A stretch of DNA of 39,364 nt from Bacteroidaceae bacterium. GTDB lineage: Bacteria; Bacteroidota; Bacteroidia; Bacteroidales; Bacteroidaceae. The position numbers were made by a program, and so were the translations under genes. The DNA is taken from contig JAFVSR010000002.1 in the NCBI GenBank assembly GCA_017503645.1, positions 1 to 39,364 on the forward strand. The letters run 5' to 3'. How positions within the stretch are numbered: position 1 is the stretch's first letter; each line of letters begins with the position of its first letter. Under the pieces are notes generated by a model. That model was not told the DNA's origin. It saw only the letters and a program-made list of their open reading frames with translations, and ran no database searches. Positions 1,261-23,488 of the stretch are shown piece after piece.

Positions 1261-4200
1261 TTACTTAACAATTTTTTTACCATTCACAATATACATACCC
1301 TTGCCGATATTCTTCACACGGCGGCCCATAAAGTCGTATATGAGCGCAGGCTTCTCTGAATCGAGTTCGATACCTTCGATGCTTGTAGTGCCATTTGCAA
1401 AACTTATACTTATAGCCTGCTGTGCACTCTCAAGCTGTAGGTATGACTTGTTAGCAGACAATGTTCCACCCGAACAACGGTAGAAACCTACTCCTTGTGC
1501 TCCATTAGTCAGCAAGTATGCGTTGGCAATACCATTCATCGATTTGTCTGCGCCTGCCGAGTGACCAAAGAGGTTGGTGCCGATAGAGGCAGCTGTTTCG
1601 CCTGCTGCAGGGAGCATAACTGCATTGCCGTTTTGTTCAGCTATAAGAATTACGCCGGTATTAGCGGGGATAGATTCTTCTGTGCTAATCGCATTAAGGG
1701 TTACATACTCATTCTCTTTTGTTGCATAGTATGCAGTTACGCCCTCGGGTGCAACAGTGGGAAAAGGCGCACTGAATGTAGCCATATAGGTGTTATGCAG
1801 GTCTTCTGACAATAGTTCGCCCTGACCCACGCTGTTGAGTTTGGGAGTGTTGGCATAGGTGGCTTCCTCCATAATGATTGCAGAAGAGTATGCGTCGGTA
1901 TAGTAAGGAGCACTTGATTTGTCAAAAGACAAATCGCTCTTCTTGATGATAACGCAACCATCACCGTTGGCATTACGGCGAGCATAGATATTTACATAGC
2001 AAGTATTGGTGAGGTCGCCTGTAATATTGCTGCCTGTTGTCATCTTTGATATAGTAACATCGGTGTACGCAGCAGTTGTGGCGTCGTACGCTTCTCTAAC
2101 GCCTGTATTACCCGAGTCTCCACCACGCCAGGTCATATATTTGCCGTCGTTGCACACGAATACATATTTGCCATTCTGCAATAAGCGGCACACGAAAGGT
2201 GTTGCATTGGCCTCTGTGGTTGTGGCTTCTATAAGTCCGCTTGAAGGATTATAGGTGAGCCAGCATACGGTTGTACCATCCTTCTGTACATTTTTGAATG
2301 TATATGCCTTACCGCTTACGGGCATATTACGCTCTGTAGAAGCTAATATAGCAGCCTTTGCTGTGGCAATTTGTTCAGCAGTCATAGCAGCGGCGGCAGC
2401 CTCCTTATAGGTAGCGATAACAGCGTCGGTGTAGTAACCAATTTTACCGGCCTCTGCATCGAAAGCTGTGAGATCTGATAGCTTGGCAGCCTCCACAAAA
2501 CCAAAGTTACAACCTGAATCGTTCTTGCGGGCTCCTGTACCATCGCCAAGACTGTTATAACCCCAGTTTGTGAGTGCTTTGGTCTTCAAGGCGTGCATCT
2601 GACAGGGTACAGAGCCGTTGAATATTACTTGCAAACCCTCGGTCTCTGAGTCTTCGATGCTCCAAGCAGCAGAAGACTGTGTTGTGCTTGTGGTGATACT
2701 ACTCGCAGGTACCAGATATTTTCCGGTTTTGCTTATGATATGGAACGTCCCCTCTCCTGTGGGTATCTTTCTCCACAGCTGGGTGTCGCTCTTTAACTGT
2801 GTATCCGAAAATTGAAGGTTATCACCAAGATAAGCCCAAGAATTTACTGCGAAATTAGAGCCACTGCGTTTTTCTTGAAAACGGATGTAATACCAAGCCT
2901 CGTCACCCTCCTCTGCAACAGCCTTAAGGTTGTAGAGGTAGTCAATCTGCTGTGTTGTGGGCTCGGGGCTGAGAGCATCGAGGGCGTTAGCCATCGCTGC
3001 CTTTATTTCATCGCTTGCATCTGCTGTAATCGCAGTAAAGTAGTTTCTTATATAAGTACGACGGTCTACGTTACGTTTGATGCTGTATGCACCACCTGTG
3101 AGGTATTCAAGGTCGTAAGCTACATAAATGTTATCGAATCCGTCGAAGTTGTGCTGTCCCTCGCCATTGGGGAAACAGGTTGATACAGGGTTGTCTCTTT
3201 TGCCCCAACTTGTGAGAGTCTCCTCGTAAATGAAGCCGATGCGGTTGTCGGCCTGCAAATCCATAGAGCTGTATGCCGATGATTTGGTGGTTACCTCAAA
3301 GAAACCATCCCATCCTGTAGCCAAAGCACTTACGCTATTTATATCAGAGGCATCGGCGAGTTCCTTGTAGAAGATACCGACATTGCTACGGCCACCACCT
3401 GTGGGGAGTGACTGCAGAGCAAGGTACATCTCGCTATTGTCGCTATTACGTACAACGGGCACGATAAGCATCTCACCGTTGGTTGAGTTGCTACCGGCAG
3501 AGTGACCTGCACCTTCGAATGTGCTCATCACATCACCCTCCCACGAGCCCTCGGCTGTGAGAGTATTTGTGTATGTATATATGTTATAGATGCGTCCACC
3601 TGTTACGCGGCTCGAAAGTATCACACGGCCGTCGGGCAGCTCCTCACATTTGGGCTCGTCACCACCAGGCGCGGGAAGAGCCGACGCTCCACCAAGAGCG
3701 TGCCAAGTACGGCCAAAGTCATCAGAATAGATGACGCGATTACCATTGGGGCGGGCACACATAGCTGCATAGAGACGATAATATCGGTCCTTTCTTACGA
3801 TGCGGCTCTGAAATACCTTACCACCACCCACAAAAGCCGCCTGCATAGGATTGCCACTGTCGAATAGGCTGTAAATGGGCTCGGTTACATCGACAGGGGT
3901 TCCCCAAGTGTTACCGTTGTCGGTACTATGAATGGTGGCAATCATGTTTGGGTTCTGACGGGTAGTGCGGCTGTTACCATATTGAGTACATCCGGCAACA
4001 GCAATAACCAAAACCTCACTGCTGGTGCGGTCGGCTACGATAGCAGGGTCACCAAAAGCTGTCTCGAAAATATTACGTTCTGCCGACTCCTCTCCTGTAC
4101 CCACAGCCACCTCAATCATATCGCTCCAGGTCTCACCGTTGTTGTCGCTGGTACGGCACACAACATCCACCTGGCCAAAACCTGGGTCGGTACCACATAC

Positions 4201-7200
4201 AAGACGAGCTGCAGCCGTGATGAGACGACCGTTGTTTGCTGTTGTGATACCGGGAATACGGTAAGGGGGGATTACACCGTCGCCCTTACTGGTGTTGTAA
4301 AGGTCTTGTTTTACAATGCGAGGTTTTACGCCTGTGAGGGTAATGGTATTGCCCTCGATAGTAATACGTGCACCGTCTTTGAGGTCGTTACCTACGATAG
4401 CACCCGAAAGCTGTGCCTCTGTGATAGCTCCATCGGTAATAAAGAAACCGCCATTAAAAGCGTTCTGCACTGTTGTGCCATTGTTATATACTACATATCC
4501 GTCTGCGTGGTCAATCTCCACCTGATAGATAGTCTTGCCCTCGACGTTTACAGGCTCGAAGCGCCATAGGTTGTCGTTTGCTGTTGCAGGACCTGCCGCC
4601 CAGGTTGTGAGGTGATGTACGCCACTCACGCTGTATGAGCTGTTTGCACAGTTAAGTGCCGAATCGAAATAGTAGTAGCATACACCATCGGTTTCTTGTG
4701 TGCTGGCGATGGTGAGCTGGGTGTAAGAGCCCATAAGGGATGCACCGCTACCACCTGCCACGATGGGGTTACCATCTCCGTTCTTGATGCCAACCTTACC
4801 ACCTCCGAGAGAAGTAATATACCAAATACCGTTGTTTGTGTTTACCATTGCATCGGACTGCAATGTTAAGCGATTGCCGTTACCCGAGAGTGTCGCATCG
4901 TTATAAAGGTGCTCACGGCGGTCGGTAGCCTTGCTAATCATATGATAATAGCCAGTTGCGATAGTGGGAGCTGCGGGCACCTCAACATCTACACCATTGA
5001 GGAACGCCTCAAGGTCATCGACAATGGCTGCACACTCCTCTCCTGCAACATTTGCAGCATCGAAGCGATTGAGAAGGGTGTTCAGTGTATAGGTCTTGTC
5101 AAGGTCGTTGCTATACTCTTCACGCAAAATCTGAATTTTCTCATATTGGTGAATACCCTCGATAAGACGCTCAAAACGTATGCTTGAACGATTACCAGGA
5201 TAGTAGCAGTATGTGTCGCCTGAACCAAACTTGCGGAAACGGCTGTCGGTCAAGGGGTGTTCGTCCCAGTTCATCCAAGCCCAGTGGAGGTATCCGTCGA
5301 GGTTCATCTTGGCTGCGTAGATAGGCAAGAAGGCTGCCTCTGCGGGGTATGAGTTTGAATAGATGTTGGGCTCATCATTTGCGCAGCTTGTGTACAAGGT
5401 GCTTACCCAGCCTTTTGCTTTGCGGTCGGCAAGCTGGGCGGCAGTGAATTGGCCCTCTTGACCAAGCTGTACACACAGGTCTCTGAACTTGTCGCACAAC
5501 GAGCTGTGATAGTTACCTGCAAGAGCCATATTGAAGCCTAACGCATTCGCTATATTATAAGCGTTGAGCATATCTGCCTCTTGACGCTCGTCAAGAGCGA
5601 TGTTTGTCTTCTCAAACCAACCTTTCTCAACGAGGTGTGCTTTGAAGGCTGTGAGGAAGTTGCTCCACAAGTCGCGATACTCCTCCGTAGATGTGGTTGT
5701 AGTGAGGCTGGTGTAGCTCTCGCTCTCCTCGTCCCAGTAACGGAAGCTCATATCCCAGGGAACCATAGAGAAACAGTTGATGTACTTGTCTATGCCACAT
5801 TCTGCACAGAGTTCTACATATTTGTCAAATACAGTGTAGTCATAATCCCAAGAGCCGTCAGCCTTTTTGATGGTCTCAACCATAGGGTCAAAGAGGTCGT
5901 GTGTCTGCTCTCCCCAAGGCTCATAGAAAAGAATCGTAGATACGACACGCTGGCCTGCACGACCAAGAGCCTTCAGGTAGGGGCGTAGAGCCTCAATGTG
6001 CTCATCGCTCCAACGCTTTGCACTATAGTAACGGCTTACCGCATAAGGCTGTTGCCAGAAGTCGAGGTGGAATTTCTGCTCCGCAACTATGGGGAGTGAG
6101 TGGCTGTCCACAACGATTGTGAGCGCAAGGCTCTTTACTACGTTACCTTCCTCGTTCACAACCTCGAGTGCTGTGGTGTACTCGCCGGCAGCAATCTCGC
6201 GGGGAACCTCGATAGTACACCACACAGGGCGTGTCTCCATAGCAGGAACAGCGTGAGGCTTGTCCTGGTCTATAACATCTGCCACAAGCCAAGTAGGATA
6301 ACTCATACTATGGTTGCCGCACGAAGCGAAATCGTCGGTAATCACGTAATTTACAAAACGTGCATCGCCCGCTTTGTCGATACCTGTGGCAGCCCCATTC
6401 TTTTTCCATTCGGTCATACGAACCGAGAGAGTGCCCTGGTCTGTCTTGCTGTAAAGCACAGCCTGTATGTTTGCACGCTCGCCTTTCCACGCTCTCAATG
6501 TAGCAGCATCCTGCTGTACGTGCTCGGGTACTTCGTGCAACTTGTAATGAATGTCGCGTGAGCCCCACGAAGCAATGAGGCCGTCAGGCAGGGCGTTCCA
6601 CGATGCGGCATCGGGTGTAGTACCTACGCGAGGTTCGGTGTACTCATTAATAGGGTATTCATACAAATCGTCACCGCTTGCAATGCCTGAAATTTTCAAT
6701 GTAACATCGATGATAGAAGCTCCGTCGGAGATATAATTTGCATAGCTTGCTCCTGTGGGGTCAATGCAGTTCCACATAATACAATATCGCATACGATATG
6801 TAGAACCCACCTCAAGGCCTTCGGGCACGCGGAATGAACCGGGAGTCAGGACATCGCCACTTACAGCGAGACCTGCACTATTCCAGCCCGAGTTTCCGTT
6901 GCCACCTTTGTCATAAAGCGACCAACACATAAGCTCATTGCCATTTCCCTTGATGTAGGGGCCATCGCCTGTGAGATTTACATCAAACAGTCCATTCTCA
7001 TTCCAATCGACATATACATATCCGTGCATAAAACTGCCGTTGATTACGATTTGGGGAGTTACTGTTTCGCCACTTTTTACCTCAAATACGATGTCGGTTT
7101 TGTCAAAGTAAGCCTGGCAGCGGGGAGCCGAAGCGATGTTGTTTATCGCCTGCTGGTCGCCACGCACATTGCTTACGCCCACCATGATGGGGTAATGTTG

Positions 7201-7329
7201 ATTGTGATTCACAGTCACATCCGCACCATGCTGAACAAAGTAGTTGCCCTGTTCTTGAGCCCGAGCAACAAAAGCCATTGCCATTACGAGGAGGCAAAAT
7301 AGGCTTCTCATGATTGTTTGTTGTTTCAT
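1261..7329 (-). CDS. Secreted GH123 beta-N-acetylgalactosaminidase / GH33 sialidase fusion
   Basis: This is a 2022-residue exported protein. Signal peptide about 1-25; a GEVED-like beta domain (about 75-215) and a GH123 N-terminal-type domain (about 225-410). A GH123-like catalytic barrel (about 415-780) carries the adjacent Asp-Glu pair D580-E581 in I-A-L-D-E-R, which matches the substrate-assisted catalytic pair of this family. A ricin-like beta-trefoil follows (about 790-925). The GH33 sialidase propeller (about 1010-1415) has Y-R-I-P with R1024, a likely acid/base D1048, Asp boxes at 1061, 1135 and 1202, candidate arginines R1241 and R1314, and Tyr1368-Glu1369 as nucleophile pair. Helical and beta modules lead to a type IX-like tail (about 1980-2022). 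Expected activities are removal of beta-GalNAc and alpha-sialic acid at the cell surface or outside. It is first in a two-gene operon with the 53-residue protein. Module calls rest on motifs, not a search. Confidence 0.82.
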   Translation of the reverse strand: MKQQTIMRSLFCLLVMAMAFVARAQEQGNYFVQHGADVTVNHNQHYPIMVGVSNVRGDQQAINNIASAPRCQAYFDKTDIVFEVKSGETVTPQIVINGSFMHGYVYVDWNENGLFDVNLTGDGPYIKGNGNELMCWSLYDKGGNGNSGWNSAGLAVSGDVLTPGSFRVPEGLEVGSTYRMRYCIMWNCIDPTGASYANYISDGASIIDVTLKISGIASGDDLYEYPINEYTEPRVGTTPDAASWNALPDGLIASWGSRDIHYKLHEVPEHVQQDAATLRAWKGERANIQAVLYSKTDQGTLSVRMTEWKKNGAATGIDKAGDARFVNYVITDDFASCGNHSMSYPTWLVADVIDQDKPHAVPAMETRPVWCTIEVPREIAAGEYTTALEVVNEEGNVVKSLALTIVVDSHSLPIVAEQKFHLDFWQQPYAVSRYYSAKRWSDEHIEALRPYLKALGRAGQRVVSTILFYEPWGEQTHDLFDPMVETIKKADGSWDYDYTVFDKYVELCAECGIDKYINCFSMVPWDMSFRYWDEESESYTSLTTTTSTEEYRDLWSNFLTAFKAHLVEKGWFEKTNIALDERQEADMLNAYNIANALGFNMALAGNYHSSLCDKFRDLCVQLGQEGQFTAAQLADRKAKGWVSTLYTSCANDEPNIYSNSYPAEAAFLPIYAAKMNLDGYLHWAWMNWDEHPLTDSRFRKFGSGDTYCYYPGNRSSIRFERLIEGIHQYEKIQILREEYSNDLDKTYTLNTLLNRFDAANVAGEECAAIVDDLEAFLNGVDVEVPAAPTIATGYYHMISKATDRREHLYNDATLSGNGNRLTLQSDAMVNTNNGIWYITSLGGGKVGIKNGDGNPIVAGGSGASLMGSYTQLTIASTQETDGVCYYYFDSALNCANSSYSVSGVHHLTTWAAGPATANDNLWRFEPVNVEGKTIYQVEIDHADGYVVYNNGTTVQNAFNGGFFITDGAITEAQLSGAIVGNDLKDGARITIEGNTITLTGVKPRIVKQDLYNTSKGDGVIPPYRIPGITTANNGRLITAAARLVCGTDPGFGQVDVVCRTSDNNGETWSDMIEVAVGTGEESAERNIFETAFGDPAIVADRTSSEVLVIAVAGCTQYGNSRTTRQNPNMIATIHSTDNGNTWGTPVDVTEPIYSLFDSGNPMQAAFVGGGKVFQSRIVRKDRYYRLYAAMCARPNGNRVIYSDDFGRTWHALGGASALPAPGGDEPKCEELPDGRVILSSRVTGGRIYNIYTYTNTLTAEGSWEGDVMSTFEGAGHSAGSNSTNGEMLIVPVVRNSDNSEMYLALQSLPTGGGRSNVGIFYKELADASDINSVSALATGWDGFFEVTTKSSAYSSMDLQADNRIGFIYEETLTSWGKRDNPVSTCFPNGEGQHNFDGFDNIYVAYDLEYLTGGAYSIKRNVDRRTYIRNYFTAITADASDEIKAAMANALDALSPEPTTQQIDYLYNLKAVAEEGDEAWYYIRFQEKRSGSNFAVNSWAYLGDNLQFSDTQLKSDTQLWRKIPTGEGTFHIISKTGKYLVPASSITTSTTQSSAAWSIEDSETEGLQVIFNGSVPCQMHALKTKALTNWGYNSLGDGTGARKNDSGCNFGFVEAAKLSDLTAFDAEAGKIGYYTDAVIATYKEAAAAAMTAEQIATAKAAILASTERNMPVSGKAYTFKNVQKDGTTVCWLTYNPSSGLIEATTTEANATPFVCRLLQNGKYVFVCNDGKYMTWRGGDSGNTGVREAYDATTAAYTDVTISKMTTGSNITGDLTNTCYVNIYARRNANGDGCVIIKKSDLSFDKSSAPYYTDAYSSAIIMEEATYANTPKLNSVGQGELLSEDLHNTYMATFSAPFPTVAPEGVTAYYATKENEYVTLNAISTEESIPANTGVILIAEQNGNAVMLPAAGETAASIGTNLFGHSAGADKSMNGIANAYLLTNGAQGVGFYRCSGGTLSANKSYLQLESAQQAISISFANGTTSIEGIELDSEKPALIYDFMGRRVKNIGKGMYIVNGKKIVK

Positions 7330-8201: not shown

Positions 8202-11200
8202 TTAATAAATTACCTTTTTGCCGTCAATTACATATATTCCCTTTGTGGGGCTCTGCACGGGGCGACCGAAGAGGTCGTACACGCGGCCATCGCCTGCACC
8301 CACTGCCTCAAAGCTGTCAATGCCGGTTGTGCCGGGGAAACGGAAGTTCAGTGCCGAGGCTTGTGCATCGCTTATGCTCATATACATTTTAAAGCCGTTG
8401 ATGTTTGTACCGTTGTACTTGCGCATAACCACGCCGGTTGCTGCTGTAACATCGGTTTGCAGTGTGTAGGGGTTATCCACACTGCTTGTGGCAATCTTCT
8501 TTGTTGTGCCTAACAGGTGATTCTCGCCTGTGAACTCTACATCTGCGGTGATGGTGAAATTGTATGTGTTTGCATCACCTTGGAGTATCACAGCCTGGCC
8601 GGCAGGAATTGTGCCCTCGAAAGCGTGTAGGTCGATGTAGTCGCCGTTTATAACTGCACGGTATGCAGTAACGCCATCGGGTATCTCCACTGCTACAGGG
8701 GCATAGAATGTTGAATAACCTACCAAGCCGATAGTTACGGGGAGAGAGGTCACTTCGGTAATCACCCAATTATGCGCTGCGCCACAGGTATTGTTTGTAC
8801 AACGATTCACATATCTGTCGCTGCTGTGCAACCAGCGGTCGGCCGATTTTATATTACATTCTCCTACATTTGCGCTTACGGCAAACGTGATTTCCGAAAT
8901 ATCGTTGGAACCTACAGCCTCAAAAGCCCAATCATTTGCATTCAGGCCTATATACTGACCGTTGCTGTATGAGAGCAGATGATTCCCATCGAGATAGAAA
9001 ATTGCAGCTGCCCGATTGGTGGTGTTCATTGCTATCTTGCCATCGTTTGTTGTCGCGCCTTGGATATAGTTGCCATTATTACTTATGGTATAGAATTTTC
9101 CACCTGTTGGCAATACCGGCTGAACTGAATATGTTCCCATATATGCGGTAAGGGCATCTTGTATTGTTTGCAGATCGGCCGATGTTGTAGCCTGTGCCAA
9201 TGCTTCCTCCACATCGGCAGTGGTGTTGTATTTTGTCACATAGCTACCTATGGCAGCACCCTCGGAGCCTGCATTAACTTCAGCGGCTATTTCGGGGAGC
9301 TTGCCTGCAAGCGCTTGTGCCTCTTTCACACGGGCAGCATTGAACTTATCGCTGTCCACCTCATCGCTTCCGCCTGTGAGCCAGTTGAGCGAGAAGCGTA
9401 CATAACGCATCTGATAACCACCTTCAAGAGCATCTTCTTCGAGGTACATACCGATTGTTCCATCTTCGAGCACGGTCATAGTAGAATAGGCCGAGCCGCC
9501 GGGGCATATGCTCTTCTTCACGGGCCACGTTTCAGCCTCGTCGGTACTCAAATATACTGTTACGTTTTTGCGCGAGGTCGCATCGGGTACAGAAAGGAGC
9601 AAACGGTTTGCACCCTCGTCCTTGCCTGTTGATGTAAGGCGTATTATATCGCCGTTGCAACCCGGGTCGTAAACTCCGGCGAATTGTGCGCGGGGAGTCC
9701 ACGTTTTGCCGTCGTCATCGGATATTGCGTAATATACATTACCACCACCCTGCTTGCGCGACTTAACGAGCAAGCGGCCGTCGTTGAGCTCTACAATCTT
9801 CGACTCGTCGGCATCGGTGAGCGCGGGTACTGCGTTACAGGTCCAGGTCTTTCCGTGGTCCTCGGAACGCATAATATGCGCCTCGAACAGCGAGTGGCTG
9901 AAATTACTTGTTGTTGCCACAGGAGCTACGCACATAAGCGTTCCCTTGCTTGTCTGCAGGGCTGCGCCCGAACTGAAGAACATTGAATACCAGTTCTTGC
10001 GCACAGGGTCGCTGCATCCGCTGCCATAAATCTGGTCGGTGATATCAACGGGAGCATCCCAAGTGAGACCGTTGTCGTGGCTTATGATGCATTTGAGGCG
10101 GGTGGGATCATCGGGTGTTCCCGAGTAGAAGCCCTTCTTCGATGTTACAAGAACGATGATGTCGCCTGTGATGCGGTCGGTAACAATTGCGGGATCGCCG
10201 TGACCGTAATCGCCACCGAGCTCTGCTGTTCCGGCAATGGTAACGGGCTCGGTCCAGGTCTTTCCGTTGTCCTTGCTCACGCGTGCTACAACATCAATAT
10301 TGTTGGGGAGGTCGTTTATGCTGCCAAAGCGCTTGTCGGCAACGGCAACCAACCAGCCGTTCATTGCTGTTGCAATGGCAGGGATGCGGTAGTAACGCGA
10401 ATCGTATGTATTGCAATACTCAACGGTGCTTGTTGTGAGGAACACCGTGGTGCTGTTTGCGGGGTTGCCTGCGCTCTCAAGAACAGTTCCACCGTTAATG
10501 GTGTAGCTTGTTATTGCTGCATCGATTACGGTGCCCTCTGCTGCTTCCTCGCTTATGTCTGCAACCAACCAATAGTAGGGCGAGTTGCCCAAAGGCAATG
10601 TCTGTGCATTGGTAAATGCGATATCGAACGAGCCGTCAGCGGCAGGTGTTGCCTCGCCCATAAGGGTGGCATCTGTTCTATCCTTGCGGTATTCATATAT
10701 ATCGGCTACCGAATAGATATAGAGTTTCTCTACTGCACTGCTGTTGGTGATTGTACCCTTGATGTTCTGTAGTGTTGCATAACCATTAAGGCCTGTAACT
10801 GTCATACCAATGCGCAACAAGGGCTCTTTCTCGTTGCCGATACCAGTGGCGGTGAGGCCAAGCTGTACGGTTGTAGAAGAGAGCTGCGCAGTTGAAGCAA
10901 TATCCTCGGCTGCGAGAGGCTCGAAAGACCAGAGCGATGCGCCGTTGTCGGCTGCCGCCCAAGTAACAATGATTGAATTTGCATTTTGTGCGTGCAACGG
11001 GTTGCTACTTGCATCCGATTGGATAGTGAAGCCCTTGTTACCAAGTGAAGTTCCACTCCAAGCGGTTATGGTGTAGTTGTATGCAGCAGTTTCGGTAATA
11101 CCTGCTGCGGCATTGCCGTTCTCCTGCGACTTCGAGATGTAACCGCCGGCGTAGTTGCAGATGGCCACTTTGCCGTTGCTGCCCTTCTCGAAACGCCACA

Positions 11201-14200
11201 CCATATTGGGGTCGAGCTGTTTAGTGCCGAATGTGAGCGGGCCGCTTGCATTCTTCTTCATTGCCTTACCTGTGCAATAATCGTTGGTTGCAGCCGACAG
11301 TATGTAGTACCACACAGGGTTATCTGCAGTTGAGTACTGTACCTCGCAACGGGCTGCCTCGTAAGTTGCAATGGCAGCTTCAAGAGCTGCTACAGCAGCT
11401 GTAACCTCGTCGTCGGTGAGGCCGTCAGTTGCATTCTTTATTATTGCAGCATCTATTGCCTCTTGCAATGCTGTGCGGCTCGCGGTGGTGAAGTGGCCCG
11501 GGTTAGTGCCTTCGGTTGTTCTGCCCAAAAGGTTGGTTGCATCGTTTATGGCAACCGTGAGGGCGGGATAACCGATAGATGCCTTGGCAACCGAAGTGAG
11601 TATATAATCGGAGCACCAAGTGCCGTTGTTTATTGCGCTGCTTGTCTGGTTGAAACTTGCACCGGTAGCGGCCATAACCATATATTTACCGCCTGTTGAG
11701 GTGGGGTTGTAGAGCGACATTGCGCCCACGCCTGTGTGTACTGCATCGTTCTTGAACTGGAAACTGTACTCGCTGTCGGCAACCTTGAGGCTTGTGCCGG
11801 CGTATGAGAGATACTTACCGCTGCCGTTCTTCAGGTAGTAGGCATCGGTGCCGTTAAGTATGAGCGACCATTCGTAGTTGGCATTATCGAGTTCATAGCC
11901 TTCGGCATTGGCAAGATTGCTGCCATTTACATAGAGGTAACGGTCGATGTATGTACCGTCGCTCTGCTTGGTGTTGGCAGCAAAGAAGTATTTGCTTGCA
12001 GGGTACTCGATAGACGCTATCTCGTCGGTAGTCAATGCTCTGTCGAAGAACTGCACAGTGTGTATCTTGCCCTGGAATACCTCGAAACTGCTATTGTTGC
12101 TTGTTACACCACCACCAATGTATATTTTCGCATTATCGTTATCGGCAAGTTTTTTGAATGTCTGCAGAACGTAGCCAACTACGGGGAATGCCTGCTCCTG
12201 ATGAAGTGTGCCATCGACATATACTTTGTAATTGTTGTTTGTCTGGTCCACAACAATAACCACCTTGCTCACGGTGTTTGCTGTGAGTGATGCCAATTTT
12301 GTGGTAAAGCGGTCGCCACCATTTGACGATGCCAGGTATGCTACATTTGCGCCATAATGGCCATAGGCAAAATAGGGGGAATTGTCCTTTGTGGCGGTAG
12401 ATACCGCTGCCTGTGTGGGGTCGCCTGCACTGATGAATGCACGGCGGCCGTTGAATGATGCGGGCATTGTAACCTCCATTGCAATGGTAACGTCGGTGGT
12501 TGCAAACAGTTTGGCAGCATCGCTCTTTCTTAACTCATAGGGATATGTTGCAAAGGTGAGGGCATCGACGGTTACTATAGGTTCAAGTTCAGTGGGCACT
12601 GCTACAATGAGTCGCTTGCTGCTTGTATCAACAGTCATCTTCAACCCTGTGGGAACGGTGAAGTCGCTTGCCACAGGAACGGTGCCTGTGGGGAAGAAGA
12701 AGTATCCGTTATTGAACACTTTTGATATACCGCCAATGGCTGCGCTGCCTGTGTAGGTCACAGAGGGGTCGCTGCCAATTTCGGTCGCATTCTCCACGCC
12801 GCTTATAGATACGGTGTATATATCGTATGCGGCAAGCTCACTCGCGCTCACGGGAGCAAAAGCATATTTGTGGCTGGTGCTTGATGCCTTGCCCACATAT
12901 GGTTGCTCGGTGTTTGCTCCGGGGTTGTAGTAACTCCACTTATCAACGGTAGTAAAGCCGCCGTAACTCATAGTGAGAGTGGTATTACCGCTTTCCAACG
13001 AGCGTGTAGCAGTACAGGGCTCCAATATGCCCAAGCCGCTTATTGCCTGAATAAGATATTTGTTACCTATCTTCTTCACTTTCAACCAAGCAGTTGCAGG
13101 CTTTTCTGCGTCGTAAGCACCAATCTTCAAGGGATAAAAGTTGCTTGCATTTTGGCGATAGGCTGTGTTTGCATTCAAAATATTATTATTGCCTGCGGTT
13201 ATATAGCCTTGCATAGTAGCATCGGAACCTGTTACAACACGCATTTTGTACCAGCCTTCGGTGAGACTGTTAAGGTCGGTAATAACATTTTGGAAGTTAT
13301 CGTCCGTGGGAACAACGGGTTCCACCTCGGGGTCGCCTGTGTAGAGCGCTATTTTGTACTGGCAGCCTGTATCGGCACGGTCTGTACCGCTATTACCGCT
13401 GCTCCAATTGTAAATCTTGTAGCTTTGTCCACTGCCGGTTTGGTTAAGCTGCACTATTCCGCTGTGAACGATGAACAGACCTGCGGTATTCGAGTAACTC
13501 AGTTCCCAACCGTTTTCGGGCTGTTCTGTGCTTGTGGTAATCTGGTTGTTGTATGCTGCAGTAGGGGCAAGGTATGAATTGTCCTCGCGGTTTATAATGT
13601 CGAGCTTGCCATCGGTGCGGGTAACGAATTTCCACATTGTGCGGGCATAGGTGTTAGCTGTCATACCTATTGCACCTTCACCGGCTCCATTACTTGCAAG
13701 GTAACGGTTTTCGCGGTTGGGCGTGTAGAGCTGATACCACGATGCGGAATTTGCATCGCTGGTTACCGGCATGTTTATTTGGGGCAACAATTCGGTTGTT
13801 GCAGTTGAGAGGTTCGTTTTTTCTGTGGTAAACACATCGCTTGATGTTGTAGATGCTGCAAGGGCTGCATATGCTGCTGCAATCTTCTCCTTTACAGCCG
13901 CAAGGTTGGCAGTGGTGTATTCGCCCACTCCGTCGCCTTCGGGAAGGCTTGCCGCTGTAACAATGGCTGTGCCAAGTGCTGTGCGGTTGGTGAAACGGGT
14001 GTAAAGGCTGTTGGCCTCGTCGTCGGTGATTGCGGTGATGCCCTGCTCATTGATAGCGGCAGCAATTTTTTGTGCTACTTTAACATAGCCTTTGCCATAG
14101 AGATAGTTGCCGGTGAAATATACAGTGTTGGCAACATTGTTGCTCACAAAATCGGTATAAATGTCAAGGTACTCAATATTGTCGGCTGTACTCTCGGCTG

Positions 14201-15308
14201 CATATGCAGAAAGCAGTTCGTTGAATGGTACCACTCTGCCTGTATTTGTTGCCGCAGTTGCTGTGGGCTGCAGGCTCATAAGGGTAATCTTTGTATTGGG
14301 AGAATATCCCTGTATCTTAGTAACAACACTCTTGTAGCTTGCAAGAACGGTTTCAAGAGCTGTGCTGCCGTTCACATCGCTCACGCCTGCATAGAGAAAC
14401 ACCTGCGCGGGTGTGCCACCGCCGGCAAATATGGCATCTACCATCTTCAGCATATCGGCAAGCGATGGGCCGGGATAACCCCAAGTGGTTCCGCGGTTCT
14501 TTATCTTGTTGCTTTTGAGCAGTTCGTGCCACTCGCCGCCGTTAACCATCTCGTCACCTATGATGAGAATGTCATCACTGTTCACGGGCAACTTACTAAA
14601 TACTGTGGCGCGCATTCCGTTGGCACCACCCAAGCCACCGTTGGCTTGTGCCTCTGTACCATAAACCGATGTAGCATTATCATCGTCCATTACATAGGGC
14701 GCAATAATGTTGCACCAGATTTTGTACCCGTCCGATGTAAGGTGCAGGTTGTCATAGGAAAGGGTGTTGTTGGTAATACCCTGCATCGCCTCCCATAGGT
14801 CGATGTATGTTGCGCCCTTTTCGGTACACATAGTCTTCAAAGCCGTATTTGCCGCACTCAACGCATCGAGAGTGCGTATTCCGCTTGTGCTGGGCAGTAT
14901 GCTTTGTACATAAATTTCAGTATTGGGCGATGTCTGCTTGAAACGCTCTACAATCAATGTTATATTGGTGAGAACATGTTCGGTTGTGTTTATACCCGAT
15001 GTTCCCAAGTCGTTTGTTCCGAGCATAATGAACACCTTCTTGGGCTTTCCGGCAGCAATAGCCTCGATGTTGGCAAGAGCTTCATCGGTAACTGCACCCG
15101 AAACGCCTCGGTTTACTACGTTGTGATTGCCAAAGGCCTCCCACCATTCGTGCATATTGGTAATACTGTTTCCAATAAACACTATCTGCTCCGAATTTAC
15201 GGGCAACACCTTAAAGGCGTCGTACCTGTGATTACGGAACGGCCCGTCGGCAAACGAGATAGCTGTTGTCAATAGGGCGACAGCTAACATAAAAATTTTT
15301 CTTATCAT
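8202..15308 (-). CDS. Giant secreted SGNH esterase / LamG / GH33 sialidase-like protein
   Basis: This 2368-residue protein has a signal peptide (about 1-20). SGNH esterase domain 1 (about 21-207) has G-N-S-I-T with Ser48, G-T-N-D 97-100, and D186/H189 in D-N-L-H. SGNH-like domain 2 (about 230-420) has G-D-E-M with Glu253 in place of Ser and no D-x-x-H. Helical segment and beta-trefoil-like modules follow (to about 830), then a LamG/ConA-like lectin domain (about 915-1100), further trefoil and helical modules, and a BNR-associated N-terminal domain (about 1470-1625). The GH33 propeller (about 1630-1975) has Y-R-I-P with R1641, Asp boxes at 1688, 1743, 1815 and 1863, and R1851 and R1913. At the expected nucleophile it reads M-Y-L-E-E, so Leu1956 sits where Tyr is expected. 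The type IX-like tail is about 2328-2368. Expected role: sialate O-deacetylation and sialoglycan binding or cleavage outside the cell. It is second in the operon, 46 bases after the 1554-residue gene. Confidence 0.82.
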   Translation of the reverse strand: MIRKIFMLAVALLTTAISFADGPFRNHRYDAFKVLPVNSEQIVFIGNSITNMHEWWEAFGNHNVVNRGVSGAVTDEALANIEAIAAGKPKKVFIMLGTNDLGTSGINTTEHVLTNITLIVERFKQTSPNTEIYVQSILPSTSGIRTLDALSAANTALKTMCTEKGATYIDLWEAMQGITNNTLSYDNLHLTSDGYKIWCNIIAPYVMDDDNATSVYGTEAQANGGLGGANGMRATVFSKLPVNSDDILIIGDEMVNGGEWHELLKSNKIKNRGTTWGYPGPSLADMLKMVDAIFAGGGTPAQVFLYAGVSDVNGSTALETVLASYKSVVTKIQGYSPNTKITLMSLQPTATAATNTGRVVPFNELLSAYAAESTADNIEYLDIYTDFVSNNVANTVYFTGNYLYGKGYVKVAQKIAAAINEQGITAITDDEANSLYTRFTNRTALGTAIVTAASLPEGDGVGEYTTANLAAVKEKIAAAYAALAASTTSSDVFTTEKTNLSTATTELLPQINMPVTSDANSASWYQLYTPNRENRYLASNGAGEGAIGMTANTYARTMWKFVTRTDGKLDIINREDNSYLAPTAAYNNQITTSTEQPENGWELSYSNTAGLFIVHSGIVQLNQTGSGQSYKIYNWSSGNSGTDRADTGCQYKIALYTGDPEVEPVVPTDDNFQNVITDLNSLTEGWYKMRVVTGSDATMQGYITAGNNNILNANTAYRQNASNFYPLKIGAYDAEKPATAWLKVKKIGNKYLIQAISGLGILEPCTATRSLESGNTTLTMSYGGFTTVDKWSYYNPGANTEQPYVGKASSTSHKYAFAPVSASELAAYDIYTVSISGVENATEIGSDPSVTYTGSAAIGGISKVFNNGYFFFPTGTVPVASDFTVPTGLKMTVDTSSKRLIVAVPTELEPIVTVDALTFATYPYELRKSDAAKLFATTDVTIAMEVTMPASFNGRRAFISAGDPTQAAVSTATKDNSPYFAYGHYGANVAYLASSNGGDRFTTKLASLTANTVSKVVIVVDQTNNNYKVYVDGTLHQEQAFPVVGYVLQTFKKLADNDNAKIYIGGGVTSNNSSFEVFQGKIHTVQFFDRALTTDEIASIEYPASKYFFAANTKQSDGTYIDRYLYVNGSNLANAEGYELDNANYEWSLILNGTDAYYLKNGSGKYLSYAGTSLKVADSEYSFQFKNDAVHTGVGAMSLYNPTSTGGKYMVMAATGASFNQTSSAINNGTWCSDYILTSVAKASIGYPALTVAINDATNLLGRTTEGTNPGHFTTASRTALQEAIDAAIIKNATDGLTDDEVTAAVAALEAAIATYEAARCEVQYSTADNPVWYYILSAATNDYCTGKAMKKNASGPLTFGTKQLDPNMVWRFEKGSNGKVAICNYAGGYISKSQENGNAAAGITETAAYNYTITAWSGTSLGNKGFTIQSDASSNPLHAQNANSIIVTWAAADNGASLWSFEPLAAEDIASTAQLSSTTVQLGLTATGIGNEKEPLLRIGMTVTGLNGYATLQNIKGTITNSSAVEKLYIYSVADIYEYRKDRTDATLMGEATPAADGSFDIAFTNAQTLPLGNSPYYWLVADISEEAAEGTVIDAAITSYTINGGTVLESAGNPANSTTVFLTTSTVEYCNTYDSRYYRIPAIATAMNGWLVAVADKRFGSINDLPNNIDVVARVSKDNGKTWTEPVTIAGTAELGGDYGHGDPAIVTDRITGDIIVLVTSKKGFYSGTPDDPTRLKCIISHDNGLTWDAPVDITDQIYGSGCSDPVRKNWYSMFFSSGAALQTSKGTLMCVAPVATTSNFSHSLFEAHIMRSEDHGKTWTCNAVPALTDADESKIVELNDGRLLVKSRKQGGGNVYYAISDDDGKTWTPRAQFAGVYDPGCNGDIIRLTSTGKDEGANRLLLSVPDATSRKNVTVYLSTDEAETWPVKKSICPGGSAYSTMTVLEDGTIGMYLEEDALEGGYQMRYVRFSLNWLTGGSDEVDSDKFNAARVKEAQALAGKLPEIAAEVNAGSEGAAIGSYVTKYNTTADVEEALAQATTSADLQTIQDALTAYMGTYSVQPVLPTGGKFYTISNNGNYIQGATTNDGKIAMNTTNRAAAIFYLDGNHLLSYSNGQYIGLNANDWAFEAVGSNDISEITFAVSANVGECNIKSADRWLHSSDRYVNRCTNNTCGAAHNWVITEVTSLPVTIGLVGYSTFYAPVAVEIPDGVTAYRAVINGDYIDLHAFEGTIPAGQAVILQGDANTYNFTITADVEFTGENHLLGTTKKIATSSVDNPYTLQTDVTAATGVVMRKYNGTNINGFKMYMSISDAQASALNFRFPGTTGIDSFEAVGAGDGRVYDLFGRPVQSPTKGIYVIDGKKVIY

Positions 15309-15354
15309 ATTTTATTATATTTAGTTGACTTGTAAAAATCTATTTCGCTTGTGC

Positions 15355-18300
15355 TTAATATACAACCTTTTTGCCGTTGATGATATATATACCTTTTGTG
15401 GGGTTCTCCACAGGACGGCCAAAAATATCGTATATGCGGCCATCGCCTGCCGATGTACCCTCTGCCTCAATGCTATCCACGCCTGTGGTGTCGGCTGTAG
15501 ATTTAATGGGTTTGAAGGGAGCCTCATCGGTGAACTTGTATTTGCCGCCACTTGCCCAGTCGAGCGAGAAACGCACGAAACGCATTGTGTAGCCGCCAAA
15601 CAGGCCGTTCTCCTCGTAATACACGCCAAGGGTGCCATCGGGCAGAACAACTGCTGCGCTGTAGGCCGAGCCTCGGGGGCATATTGTTTTAGGGCTGCCG
15701 AAAGTGGCACCCTCGTCGGTAGAGAGTGCGATGCTTACATTTTGACGGCTGCCGCTGTTGGGCAGTGTCTGCAATGCGATATCCCAGGGGTTACCCTCCA
15801 ATGTGGAACACCACACCATATACTCGCCGTCGCAAGCATTACCACTGATACCGCTTGTGAAACGTGTCTGCGAGGGGTTATGCCAAGTGGCACCGTTGTC
15901 CGATGTGTAGTTGTAGTAGTTGTAGCCGCTTGCACGCACGCTGATGGCGAGGTCGCCGTTGTTGCGCTCAAGTGTTTTGGGTTCATCGGCAGACTTTGTT
16001 CCGCTTGTGCCACTCACATACCAATTTTTACCACCGTCGTCACTCATAAAGAAGTAGAAATTCTGGCTGTTGTCGGCCTCGCGGTTCACAAAGCTCGACA
16101 CGAGTGTGCCATCGCGTTTCTGCAATGCGGCACCCGAGCCCGAGAAGCCGCTCTTCCAGGAGTTCGTGTTGGGGTTCGAGCAGTTGGCACCAAATAGGTC
16201 GTCGGTGTGGTCCACGGGTGCTTCCCAGGTGAGACCACCGTCGCGGCTGGTAATTGTTTTCCAACGGGGAGGCTCGGCTGCTGTTCCTGCAAAGAAGCCG
16301 TGACCATATGTGCCGGCACTGGTCATAATACCCACAATCTCGCCATTGTCGCGGTTGGTAACGATTGAAGCATCGCCGTGACCATAGTTGCCACCGGTGG
16401 TGGCTGTACCTGCTACGGTTACGGGGTCGCTCCAAGTTTTTCCAAGGTCCTCGGAGTACTGCGCCACAAGGTAGCAGTGCGAGGGAAGGTCGCTGTTGTG
16501 CCCCTTGCGGTCGTCGGTAAGGGTTACAAGGCGTTTGCCGTCGCGTGTCACGGTTATTGCGGGAATACGATAGTAGAGCGAGCCCTTGTCCATAGGCATA
16601 AGCACGGCACCTTCGGATAGGAATATTGTGACTGCGTGGGCGGGGTTGCCTATTGCCTCTTCTATCTCATTGCCATCGACGGTATAGCCCAGAATTTCTG
16701 CATCCACAGTGTTACCCTCTTTGGCATCGGTTGCGATGTCGTATGTTATCCACAGGTAGTGGTCACCGGGGAGCAATTCCTTGCTGCCGGTTATGGTGAA
16801 TGTGCCGTCGCTTGCGAGGCTCACTGCTTCGCCATACTGCTCGCCGTTCTGTTCGCGCCACGTCATCTTGTTTTCTGCATCTATAAACAGTTCGCGTGCG
16901 TTTGTGGCAAAGTATGCCTTCACGTTGGTAATGTCGGCACTGTTGGTACCTATGAACTTACCTTTGACACCCTGAAAATCGCAGCTGCCTGTGAGGCCGC
17001 TCACGCGTATGTTTGAGCGCACGATGGGTTGGTTCACATTACCTATACCGGTGCTCACTTTACCTTGCTGCACGGAGGTATTGGACACCATGGCTTCGGG
17101 AGAACTTACATCCACCTCGTCGAATCTCCACAACGAGGCATTGCCTGCCGCCGAACCCCAGCGCACAATCACCTGGCCCGCCTCCTGTGCGTGCAACTCC
17201 ACGCCGGTATCTTTTATTATAAAGTAGTCATATGCACTTTGTATGGTGTATATGTGGTTGGCACCTGTTGCAATGCCAAACGCGGTGCTTCCGCCTGTAC
17301 CACCGCCTGCAGTACCTATGTATTCGCCACGGTAGTTCTTAATGGCAAGTTTGCCGTCTTTCTCCCAGAAACTCCAGACGCGGTCGGCACTGAAGGATTT
17401 GTCACCAAATCGCATACGCTCCGCTTCGCGGTCGTAGTAGATTACCTTATCCTTGCAATAGGTGTTTGTGGCAGCACTTGTAATGTAGTACCAATATTGG
17501 TTCTCCTCGGTGCTCACTTGGGGTTTTTCCTGCTTGTCCTCCTTTACCTTAACGGTAAAATCGGTGAGTACAACGCCATTGCCGTTGGCACCGGACAGCG
17601 TGAACGACACGCTTGAGAGTTTCTGTTTGGTAGCACTCAGAGTTTTTGCCACGGTGCTTGTGGTGTAGGCTTTGCCGTCGCTCATTGTGAGTGAGAGGCC
17701 TGTGCTGTGGCCGTTGTTGGCAAATGTGAAGCTATACTCCTCTATCACATAGCCCGCAGGGGGTGCGAGGGTGTAGGTTGATGTTGTGGCCGAGCCGGTC
17801 ATCATCTGCACGTTGTTGCCCTGCCAGTTCATATTGTTGGCACCGCAAGAGAACTGCAGCTGCGGAGTAGCATTGCTCTTCCACGCGCTGTTCCACGCCT
17901 GGTTGGCCGATGTGCCGCGGTAGAGGTTACCGTTGGCCTTGTCAACCACATACTCGATGGATGCGGGGGTAGATGGGCGCTCGGCGGGCTCGGGTGCCAC
18001 GGTTATCTTCAGTTGGCAGCCCTGGTCGGCACGGTCGGTTCCCTTGTTGGCATTTGCGCTCCAGTTGTAAAGGGCATAGTTCTGGGGCGAGCCTGTCTGG
18101 TTCAGCTGCACCTCGCCCGAAGATATGATATAATAGCCCATTGTGTTGGCATAGCTCACTGTCCATCCCTTTGTGGGGCGTGCGGTGGCTGCGAACAGCT
18201 GTGTGTTGTAATTGGCTACAGGGTTCAAATAGGTATTGTACTCGCGGTTCACAATGTCGAATGTATTGTCGCCACGGCTCACGAATTTCCACATAGAACT

Positions 18301-20019
18301 TGCATATTGGCCCTCGGTGAGCGAGCCCACGATGCCCACGTCACCTTTGCCCTCGGGAGCAATGTAGCGGTCGGCCGAACGGAGCGATGTCAGTTGGTAC
18401 CAATGCTCGGCACCATCGGTGCTGGCGGTGGGCATAGACAAGGCTGTCAACAATATGTTGTTGATGGCTGTTGCCTGCGCACTTGCCTCGTCGGTTGATA
18501 TTTCGGCTTTGGCAAGCAGGGTGTTGGCTTTTGCTGCCTCTGTTGCAAAGGCAGCCATCTTGGTTGCATCGTATTGGCCCACCTCGGTACCCTCTTCAAC
18601 CATAAGGCCCTTTGCTATAGCCTGCGATACCTGGTTGCGCAAACCGGCCTGGGTGTGGCGCTTTGCAGCCTCATCGTCGCTAATCACGCTTAATGCAAGC
18701 GAGGGGAAGTCGGCCTCAAGAGCTGCCTTCATCTGCGCTGCCACCTTTACGTATCCCTTACCGCCCAAATAGTTGTTGGGGTAGAAATATGCAGTGTTGG
18801 CTACAGTGCCGTTGAGCAATGGAGTGTATATATCTACATATCCTATCTTGTCGCTTTCGCCTGCAATGGACTCCATATAAGCGTTGAGCACCGAAATGCG
18901 GTTACTGTTGTCGTCGGCATTGTTCGTGGGGCAGAGGCTCATCAAATAGAGTTTTGATGTGGGCGACTTCTCCACTATCTTATCGACCAGCGCCTTGTAG
19001 TTGGCTTTTACGGTCTCCAAGTCGGTGGTGCCGTTGGCATCGGCTGTACCTGTGTACAGGAATATGGCCTTTGCATCGGTCTTTGAAGCACCGGTTTGGG
19101 CATATGTGGCATCGACCAACTTGGATGTAGTTGCAATGTCGCCGCCATAACCCCAGGCTGTTCCACGGTTCTTTATATTGAGATTGCCAAGCAACTCCTG
19201 CCACTCGCCGTTTTTCACCATTTCATCGCCAAATACAAGAATGTCATCGGCAGCAATGGGCATCATACTGAAGTATGTGGCACGCATACCGTTTGCACCA
19301 CCAAGCCCACCATTGTTCTGCACCTCGGATGTGTTGGCAGCATACACGGTTTCAACCTTGTAATCCTCGCCCTCCTCGAGATTTTGGCAGATGGTTTCGC
19401 ACCACACCTTATAGGCTGCGGCAGTAAGATGCAGATAGTCGTAGCTCCACACACCACCGCTTGCAATGCCTGTGAGCTTGGCATAGAGGTCGATGTATGT
19501 GACATTCTCACTACCCTCGGCATAAGCCTTCACCAGCTCGTTGGTGTGCAGCCAACGCTCCTGCTGACGGTTCGACGTGTTATTGTTGAGAATACTGTAG
19601 AGATAGATTTTTGTATCGGGGTAACGCATTTGTATGCGCTCCACAATGCTCTTTACATAAGCAAGAATCTGCTCTCCCGTAAAATTAAGGCCACCACTCG
19701 ATGCAAGGTCGTTTGTACCTATCATCATAAAGACCTTTTTAGGTTTATTGACCAAATAACTCTCCAAATTATTACTCTGCTCGGTGGAGTATGTTCCCGA
19801 AACGCCACGGTTCACAATGGGCAGATAGTTGCCCTCGGAGGTTTTGAAGGCCTCGGGCCAGCAATGCATATCCGTAATGCTGTTACCCAGGAACAAGATG
19901 CTGCCCTCAGCAGGTGCAAGCACCTTGAAAGAATCGAAGCGATGATTACGGAAAGGTTCATCGGCCCACACGCACACGGCGCACACAAGGGCCAGTATCA
20001 CAAGTAACTTTCTTCTCAT
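15355..20019 (-). CDS. Secreted SGNH sialate esterase / GH33 sialidase fusion
   Basis: This 1554-residue protein is a shorter paralog of the neighbouring 2368-residue protein and lacks its LamG block. Signal peptide about 1-19. SGNH domain 1 (about 21-215) has Ser47 in G-N-S-I-T, G-T-N-D at 101-104, and D194/H197. SGNH-like domain 2 (about 240-435) has G-D-E-M with Glu266 instead of Ser. Next come a helical region, a beta-trefoil (about 537-675), an unassigned beta domain (about 685-827), a second trefoil (about 840-966) and a BNR-associated domain (about 970-1135). The GH33 propeller (about 1140-1490) has R1151 in Y-R-I-P, D1177, Asp boxes at 1189, 1258, 1326 and 1373, R1362, R1425, and Tyr1468-Glu1469. 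The type IX-like tail is at the end. All sialidase catalytic positions appear intact, so it should remove O-acetyl groups and then sialic acid. It is first gene of the operon. Confidence 0.85.
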   Translation of the reverse strand: MRRKLLVILALVCAVCVWADEPFRNHRFDSFKVLAPAEGSILFLGNSITDMHCWPEAFKTSEGNYLPIVNRGVSGTYSTEQSNNLESYLVNKPKKVFMMIGTNDLASSGGLNFTGEQILAYVKSIVERIQMRYPDTKIYLYSILNNNTSNRQQERWLHTNELVKAYAEGSENVTYIDLYAKLTGIASGGVWSYDYLHLTAAAYKVWCETICQNLEEGEDYKVETVYAANTSEVQNNGGLGGANGMRATYFSMMPIAADDILVFGDEMVKNGEWQELLGNLNIKNRGTAWGYGGDIATTSKLVDATYAQTGASKTDAKAIFLYTGTADANGTTDLETVKANYKALVDKIVEKSPTSKLYLMSLCPTNNADDNSNRISVLNAYMESIAGESDKIGYVDIYTPLLNGTVANTAYFYPNNYLGGKGYVKVAAQMKAALEADFPSLALSVISDDEAAKRHTQAGLRNQVSQAIAKGLMVEEGTEVGQYDATKMAAFATEAAKANTLLAKAEISTDEASAQATAINNILLTALSMPTASTDGAEHWYQLTSLRSADRYIAPEGKGDVGIVGSLTEGQYASSMWKFVSRGDNTFDIVNREYNTYLNPVANYNTQLFAATARPTKGWTVSYANTMGYYIISSGEVQLNQTGSPQNYALYNWSANANKGTDRADQGCQLKITVAPEPAERPSTPASIEYVVDKANGNLYRGTSANQAWNSAWKSNATPQLQFSCGANNMNWQGNNVQMMTGSATTSTYTLAPPAGYVIEEYSFTFANNGHSTGLSLTMSDGKAYTTSTVAKTLSATKQKLSSVSFTLSGANGNGVVLTDFTVKVKEDKQEKPQVSTEENQYWYYITSAATNTYCKDKVIYYDREAERMRFGDKSFSADRVWSFWEKDGKLAIKNYRGEYIGTAGGGTGGSTAFGIATGANHIYTIQSAYDYFIIKDTGVELHAQEAGQVIVRWGSAAGNASLWRFDEVDVSSPEAMVSNTSVQQGKVSTGIGNVNQPIVRSNIRVSGLTGSCDFQGVKGKFIGTNSADITNVKAYFATNARELFIDAENKMTWREQNGEQYGEAVSLASDGTFTITGSKELLPGDHYLWITYDIATDAKEGNTVDAEILGYTVDGNEIEEAIGNPAHAVTIFLSEGAVLMPMDKGSLYYRIPAITVTRDGKRLVTLTDDRKGHNSDLPSHCYLVAQYSEDLGKTWSDPVTVAGTATTGGNYGHGDASIVTNRDNGEIVGIMTSAGTYGHGFFAGTAAEPPRWKTITSRDGGLTWEAPVDHTDDLFGANCSNPNTNSWKSGFSGSGAALQKRDGTLVSSFVNREADNSQNFYFFMSDDGGKNWYVSGTSGTKSADEPKTLERNNGDLAISVRASGYNYYNYTSDNGATWHNPSQTRFTSGISGNACDGEYMVWCSTLEGNPWDIALQTLPNSGSRQNVSIALSTDEGATFGSPKTICPRGSAYSAAVVLPDGTLGVYYEENGLFGGYTMRFVRFSLDWASGGKYKFTDEAPFKPIKSTADTTGVDSIEAEGTSAGDGRIYDIFGRPVENPTKGIYIINGKKVVY

Positions 20020-23482: not shown

Positions 23483-23488
23483 TACGTT

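Follow-up and report, generated by a model that had tools for sequence, protein, structure and literature searches.

The window, a stretch of 39,364 nucleotides from a Bacteroidaceae bacterium, encodes a single protein chain in which a GH123 domain is followed by a GH33-type sialidase domain, and this fusion is a conserved gene. We read the product as a secreted bifunctional exo-glycosidase resembling SiaBb3 of Bifidobacterium bifidum in design, most likely stripping Sda/GM2-type ends from colonic mucin O-glycans and glycolipids, and give this reading a probability of roughly 70%. What is new here is the conserved Bacteroidales fusion, a separate fusion with the domain order reversed and a possible third kind in the same family. 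The two-enzyme design is already known, and the protein is thus no longer new as an idea. The interpretation given in an earlier note on this DNA is partly supported.

Results

Positions 1261..7329 of the minus strand, on which all features below lie, form one open reading frame (ORF) of 2022 amino acids with an ATG start, exactly as delimited in the earlier note; its identification as a GH123-GH33 two-enzyme gene draws on the ORF, the domain matches and the relatives. The chain begins with a putative signal peptide, judged by eye (residues 1-26; 7252..7329), and an accessory region (residues 27-235; 6625..7251) whose weak GEVED match stays below the Pfam cut-off (E 0.0016, 19.6 against 24.4 bits). 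This region is 59-75% identical to that of relatives with a window-type fusion (type A) that possess one. A GH123 N-terminal domain (residues 255-391; 6157..6567; PF22680, E 4e-35) precedes the GH123 catalytic domain (residues 425-735; 5125..6057), which aligns over the full length of PF13320, GH123_cat (1-324 of 324; E 6.7e-93), and scores 312 bits, where the cut-off is 23.1; a search across the order returned identical boundaries for it. The span of 400-790 proposed earlier for this module does match GH123, but about 250-760 describes it better. Solved relatives of the GH123 part are 5l7r, a GH123 enzyme (E 4e-125), and 5fqe (E 1.4e-56), presumably BvGH123 and CpNga123, respectively.

An inter-enzyme region of 225 amino acids (residues 776-1000; 4330..5004), without a Pfam match and mostly strands in the structure model, leads to the sialidase domain (residues 1007-1372; 3214..4311), which lies within the proposed 1000-1420. 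This domain is recognized by the NCBIfam model NeuramTDE0471 (E 3.2e-72, 244 bits), as a partial match for which the full-length equivalog cut-off is 900, and the generic Pfam BNR_2 stays below threshold (23.3 against 31.4 bits). Its closest solved relative is 10qf, the Treponema denticola TDE_0471 sialidase (E 3e-60). Solved sialidases come first in both lists of structural relatives obtained; in one of the two, the comparison covers mainly residues 175-646 of a structure model (13-sequence input, 891 residues, mean pLDDT 66.8, with model residues 704-891 below 50). Both enzymes named in the earlier note are hence confirmed in one polypeptide.

The C-terminal tail (residues 1931-2022; 1264..1539) resembles a type IX secretion tail. 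Segments of it are repeated at other places in the genome, among them the ends of both neighbouring large genes, and SprA is present too; curated tail profiles, searched up to E 0.1, gave no match on the protein. The protein is putatively exported by type IX secretion.

All residues singled out previously (D580, E581, R1024, D1048, R1241, R1314 and Y1368) are located where claimed. The Asp-Glu pair D580/E581 (5587..5592) aligns with that of 5l7r and 5fqe and is present in 97/97 dereplicated GH123 sequences. Among 94 dereplicated GH33 sequences, the putative carboxylate triad is close to invariant, with R1024 (4258..4260) in 93 and a gap in one, and both R1241 (3607..3609) and R1314 (3388..3390) in all. 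D1048 (4186..4188), the probable acid/base, is found in 91/94 and aligns with the Asp mutated in 10qi (D165A) and 8t26 (D219A). These role labels for GH33 residues come from alignment and from general sialidase chemistry. The catalytic Tyr is more likely Y1353 in the motif SSAYSSM (3271..3273; 94/94), with E1225 (3655..3657; 94/94) as its probable partner by alignment, than Y1368 (3226..3228), which is Tyr in only 75/94 and Val in the aligned Porphyromonas gingivalis sialidase. A counter-hint comes from SiaBb3, in which the one single mutant reported as fully dead in the available text is Y1574A, 16 residues past Y1558 (PMC12856340). Y1368 sits much alike, 15 residues past Y1353, and by this analogy a Y1368 mutant may well be dead too.

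Several Asp boxes are present, as expected of a GH33 sialidase, although they follow the strict motif at 1135 and 1202 only, with a degenerate third at 1061. Together with the large accessory parts, which suggest binding roles, this could mean that one module is catalytically dead and now acts in binding or targeting. We consider that very improbable, given that both modules have, as judged from the alignments, intact catalytic residues and that SiaBb3 is active with three of five complete Asp boxes (PMC12856340).

Within the genus, 24 of 44 genomes carry the fusion as one match; it is also present in 45 of the 73 named loci of one scan of genome contigs, all carrying Bacteroidota names except two titled just 'bacterium'. 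Carriers are mostly ruminant-gut Bacteroidales, and the close relatives come from the guts of grazing animals, mostly the ruminant hindgut. The draft genome that holds the window consists of 108 contigs, which could suggest that assembly fused two genes, but the fusion recurs with 69-82% identity in numerous other assemblies, and this rules out an artefact for practical purposes. GH123 itself is uncommon, with matches in 40/295 genomes across the order, 12/345 across the phylum and none of the 14 control genomes used in both searches. All eight other ORFs of at least 770 amino acids from the order-wide search were examined, and they include one further type A fusion (L052, genome G549) and one GH89-GH123 fusion (L051). 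The matches from the 345 genomes of the phylum include no ORF longer than 635 amino acids except that of the window.

Comparison of 28 loci with the genes of the window, together with profiling of nine flanking proteins of four loci, revealed no conserved gene cluster surrounding the fusion. The flanks examined in relatives consist chiefly of housekeeping genes, and a GH20 or another sialidase adjoins only some.

Besides type A, a separate fusion with reversed domain order (type C) occurs in three genomes, and one draft genome carries what may be a third kind (type B); all lie within the same family. Type C is rare, with both domains in a single ORF in 2/120 genomes of its main genus. In constrained quick trees, joint clades were rejected for A and C (GH123, p 6.4e-6; GH33, p 5.6e-4), for A and B (p 4.2e-6 and p 1.6e-59) and for B and C (p 5.7e-5 and p 0.008). 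These rejections rule out, for trees of this kind, a single origin of the Bacteroidales fusions; judged on them, this domain pair was fused on at least one separate occasion. Type C comprises three rows, among which the unfused sialidase L164 falls in the GH33 tree. Type B is possibly an artefact because it is a single row, taken from one draft genome, and its GH33 branch is very long. The type A label requires three changes on the GH123 tree and nine on the GH33 tree, so type A itself may be more than one event, with gains and losses indistinguishable.

Discussion

The preferred target, on glycolipids and on the O-glycans of colonic mucin, is the GalNAc-beta-4(sialic acid-alpha-3)Gal end. The GH33 module would act first, taking the sialic acid via R1024/R1241/R1314, D1048 and Y1353/E1225. 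The GH123 module would then remove the exposed beta-GalNAc by substrate-assisted catalysis via D580/E581, leaving a bare galactose. We infer that both modules are active, in this order and on Sda, and the proposal of an Sda/GM2 substrate seems well aimed in light of SiaBb3, which removes Sda and GM2 ends, sialic acid before GalNAc (PMC12856340). A fixed geometry of the two modules would seem unnecessary, given that the inter-enzyme region is shrunken or absent in the fused relatives L037, L038, L107 and L115, and far shorter in the last two than the 225 amino acids seen here. As for the host, no paper was found that shows Sda on ruminant colonic mucin; B4GALNT2 expression was checked in sheep intestine in one available report (PMC3784507), and cultured bovine endothelial cells are described as without B4GALNT2 expression in another (PMC6158069).

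A less specific explanation, which we regard as unlikely but worth serious attention, is that two general host-glycan exo-enzymes share one secreted scaffold that merely holds both at the mucus, with Sda one substrate among many. The sialidase would then take most mucin sialic acid and the GH123 module other beta-GalNAc, such as that of asialo-GM2 and Gb4; LacdiNAc-type ends are our guess for a further target. Gb4- and GA2-type glycans are indeed cleaved by other GH123 enzymes, and sialidases appear to pair with several partners, given that one GH33 belonging to the same clade occurs as a fusion with a GDSL esterase (L042) and that a neighbouring gene at L045 combines a sialidase with a partial GH20 match. 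The SiaBb3 sialidase also cleaves non-Sda sialyl glycans, including sialyl core 1, and on simple substrates prefers 6'-sialyllactose over 3'-sialyllactose (PMC12856340), which makes the earlier description of the window protein as a dedicated enzyme an overstatement. Against the general-enzyme explanation, GH123 is uncommon and yet appears to have been combined with GH33 more than once, by separate events, with either domain coming first. Points counted against the Sda/GM2 reading include the non-conserved neighbourhood, the rarity of the reversed fusion, the variable length of the inter-enzyme region, the failure to find a paper with Sda on ruminant colonic mucin and the 6'-sialyllactose preference of SiaBb3.

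A bolder idea, for which the odds are a little short of even, is that, beyond the published proteins of Bifidobacterium and Allobaculum, GH123 and GH33 were brought together on two or, probably, three or more occasions within Bacteroidales alone, in either order, for removal of the branched Sda/GM2 cap, which would make this cap a distinct and contested food source of the mammalian hindgut rather than one step among many. If the Bacteroidales fusions act like SiaBb3, Sda use extends across several genera of Bacteroidales from ruminants and horses, the ability to remove Sda has been assembled more than once, and the Sda cap becomes testable as a selective nutrient. Nature would then supply designs with either domain first, with linkers of different length and with the two enzymes on adjacent genes, which would allow one to ask whether linkage speeds removal of the branched cap and would offer enzymes for laboratory trimming of Sda and GM2 glycans.

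The earlier note knew of no description of the pairing, but it was published with activity and mutants in December 2025 for SiaBb3, the one assayed enzyme of this design found in the literature, in a paper stating that whether gut microbes can use Sda had been entirely unknown (PMC12856340). No GH123-GH33 protein of Bacteroidota was described in the literature searched, in which subscription journals were thinly covered. The solved GH123 enzymes 5l7r and 5fqe match the window protein in sequence, including the Asp-Glu pair, but their chains of 578 and 610 residues are too short for an added sialidase, and T. denticola TDE_0471 (10qf, 10qi) is a 531-residue chain without GH123. Allobaculum mucolyticum belongs to another phylum, which we take to be Bacillota. 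Its Allo_01388, listed in 2021 as a putative GH123,GH33 enzyme, combines both families in one 1765-residue protein with a signal peptide, a likeness taken from a table entry rather than from sequence (PMC8409761, Table 1). SiaBb3 of the human gut bacterium B. bifidum JCM 1254, compared through the available published description rather than by sequence, is closest in design: a secreted single chain of comparable length with GH123 ahead of GH33, an Asp-Glu pair (D617/E618), an incomplete Asp-box set and a Glu-to-Tyr spacing of 128 residues. It differs in being bifidobacterial and sortase-anchored with about 470 residues separating the domains, whereas the window protein is from Bacteroidales and has a type IX-like tail and accessory regions of its own.

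Results

The window protein (1261-7329, minus strand, 2,022 aa), in which a GH123 domain precedes a GH33-type sialidase domain (type A), is a real, conserved two-enzyme protein. Of the 44 genomes in its genus, 24, counting that of the window, have one match across both domains (69–78% identity outside the window's genome); partial or split matches come from five more (G005, G011, G032, G036 and G040), and among the matches listed a type A match is absent from 15 of the 44. The fusion also occurs in genera g11, g16 and g30 (family search) and in genome G549, from a different family of the order (order search). A scan of named genomes, seeded with type A sequences and giving no measure of how rare other types are, found 268 stretches encoding a relative, of which the best 80 were retained as 73 loci. 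Both domains lie in a single ORF at 45 of these loci, two of which (L077 and L080) share one genome, and many of the genomes overlap the genus search. The titles of the fused loci name Bacteroidaceae bacterium (31), Bacteroidales (6), Prevotellaceae (5) and, once each, Alistipes sp., Candidatus Physcousia equi and Candidatus Equimonas faecalis. Where a title gives the source, it is mostly sheep, goat, buffalo, yak, cattle or deer, sampled at the rectum, colon or caecum; horse faeces and rumen also occur. No other phylum appeared among the best 80 stretches obtained with these seeds. The gap between the two domains in type A ranges from about 230 aa down to 16 (L107, L115).

Alignment to solved GH123 enzymes bears out the catalytic Asp-Glu pair proposed in the earlier note, D580 and E581, which is conserved in 97/97 dereplicated GH123 sequences. 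The sialidase residues named in that note stood in part. The Arg triad (R1024 in 93 of 94 dereplicated GH33 sequences, with one gap; R1241 and R1314 in all 94) and D1048 (91/94), the aligned counterpart of the Asp changed to Ala in mutants 10qi (D165A) and 8t26 (D219A), were upheld. Y1368, by contrast, is Tyr in 75/94, and the P. gingivalis sialidase has Val there; Y1353 is invariant, together with E1225 (94/94). Y1353 and E1225 fit as the candidate Tyr-Glu pair of the window sialidase, and presumably have the role of that pair. They are 128 residues apart, the same distance as between E1430 and Y1558 of SiaBb3, a GH123-GH33 enzyme of B. bifidum; in the available text of the SiaBb3 report those two are taken as the likely pair from comparison with NanI (PMC12856340). 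The same text gives, for single Tyr mutants (n = 3), full loss for Y1574A, 16 residues past Y1558, and for E1430A/Y1558A a loss of activity that is the double mutant's (PMC12856340). The Y1574A result counts against the Y1353 reading and, because that mutant is fully inactive, changing Y1368 in the window protein may by analogy abolish activity too.

Two other arrangements were found among the ORFs compared over the family and order. Type C, GH33 then GH123 in about 960–1,000 aa, is present in three genomes of the window's family (L047:5008-7881 in G369, the genome of L047/L140; L050:6180-9059 in G398; L163:6695-9700 in G1151) and is rare, at 2/120 genomes of its main genus. Type B, GH123 then a sialidase that shares 27% identity with that of the window protein, comes from one draft genome (L041:5698-9597, G068). 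In the domain trees (54 GH123 rows, 65 GH33 rows) the types lie apart with unfused relatives in between, and one-clade tests reject the joining of any two; because of this, at least two GH123-GH33 fusions are, judged by sequence, of separate origin, with type B a probable third. The unfused counterpart also exists, as adjacent sialidase and GH123 genes on the same strand (L132:3942-10023, L132/L177) or divergent (L122:3098-7367), and at L130 a sialidase piece adjoins GH123 at a contig end.

Several related ORFs differ in layout. At L160:5861-8733, L161:7531-10403 and L162:1625-4497, close type C relatives (94–99% identical), the halves are two consecutive ORFs, possibly a broken fusion, a sequencing error or a natural split. 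A window-type copy at L092:2928-6098 has the N-terminal region, GH123 and middle region, with GH33 absent from the same ORF and the next 5 kb. L051:4590-8492 encodes a GH89 (NAGLU)-GH123 fusion of 1,301 aa, and L138:1743-10076 (2,778 aa, with InlB-type repeats) and L139:1266-10442 (3,059 aa) carry a GH33 domain 69% identical to the window's.

The window gene is set in a host-glycan cluster with a NagB-like gene, a ROK kinase, GH20 and a GDSL-SASA gene. This cluster is local to the window, since the flanks in the relatives examined consist largely of housekeeping genes, and GH20 or a further sialidase lies alongside in some. Two large tandem neighbours (8202-15308 and 15355-20019), one with a LamG domain, combine a GDSL esterase with a sialidase and possibly strip O-acetyl groups and sialic acid together. 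At 22238-25063 a radical SAM/SPASM protein abuts a sulfatase, arranged as for an anaerobic sulfatase-maturing enzyme. Beside the type A fusion of L045, a 2,167-aa protein (12065-18565) has a partial GH20 match and LamG, F5/8 and sialidase domains.

Discussion

The repeated fusion is most simply read as selection for making the two cuts at a single site, in keeping with a cap whose two sugars share one galactose; as indirect evidence, short of proof, it suggests Sda as a substrate. Reports on the host side, in the parts available, cover sheep intestine examined for B4GALNT2 expression (PMC3784507) and cultured bovine endothelial cells without it (PMC6158069); a limited literature search found no report of Sda on ruminant colon mucin.

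The earlier note knew of no description of the GH123-GH33 pairing. Both the pairing and the substrate idea were already known, since SiaBb3 and Allo_01388 are in print, the latter entered as GH123,GH33 in the accessible part of a 2021 paper (PMC8409761). As described in the available text by Katoh and colleagues, SiaBb3 (1,753 aa; GH123 281-757, sialidase 1229-1607) converts GM2 to LacCer and takes Sda off mucin, sialic acid first; its authors call it specialised for Sda, and it likewise cleaves non-Sda sialyl glycans (PMC12856340). The window protein most likely works as SiaBb3 does and removes Sda/GM2 ends, a prediction that we put at a probability of roughly 0.7. Added interest comes from a separate fusion in Bacteroidales that joins these two enzymes in the reverse order. 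Set against SiaBb3 and Allo_01388, the window protein is a further example of the published GH123-GH33 kind, from another phylum.
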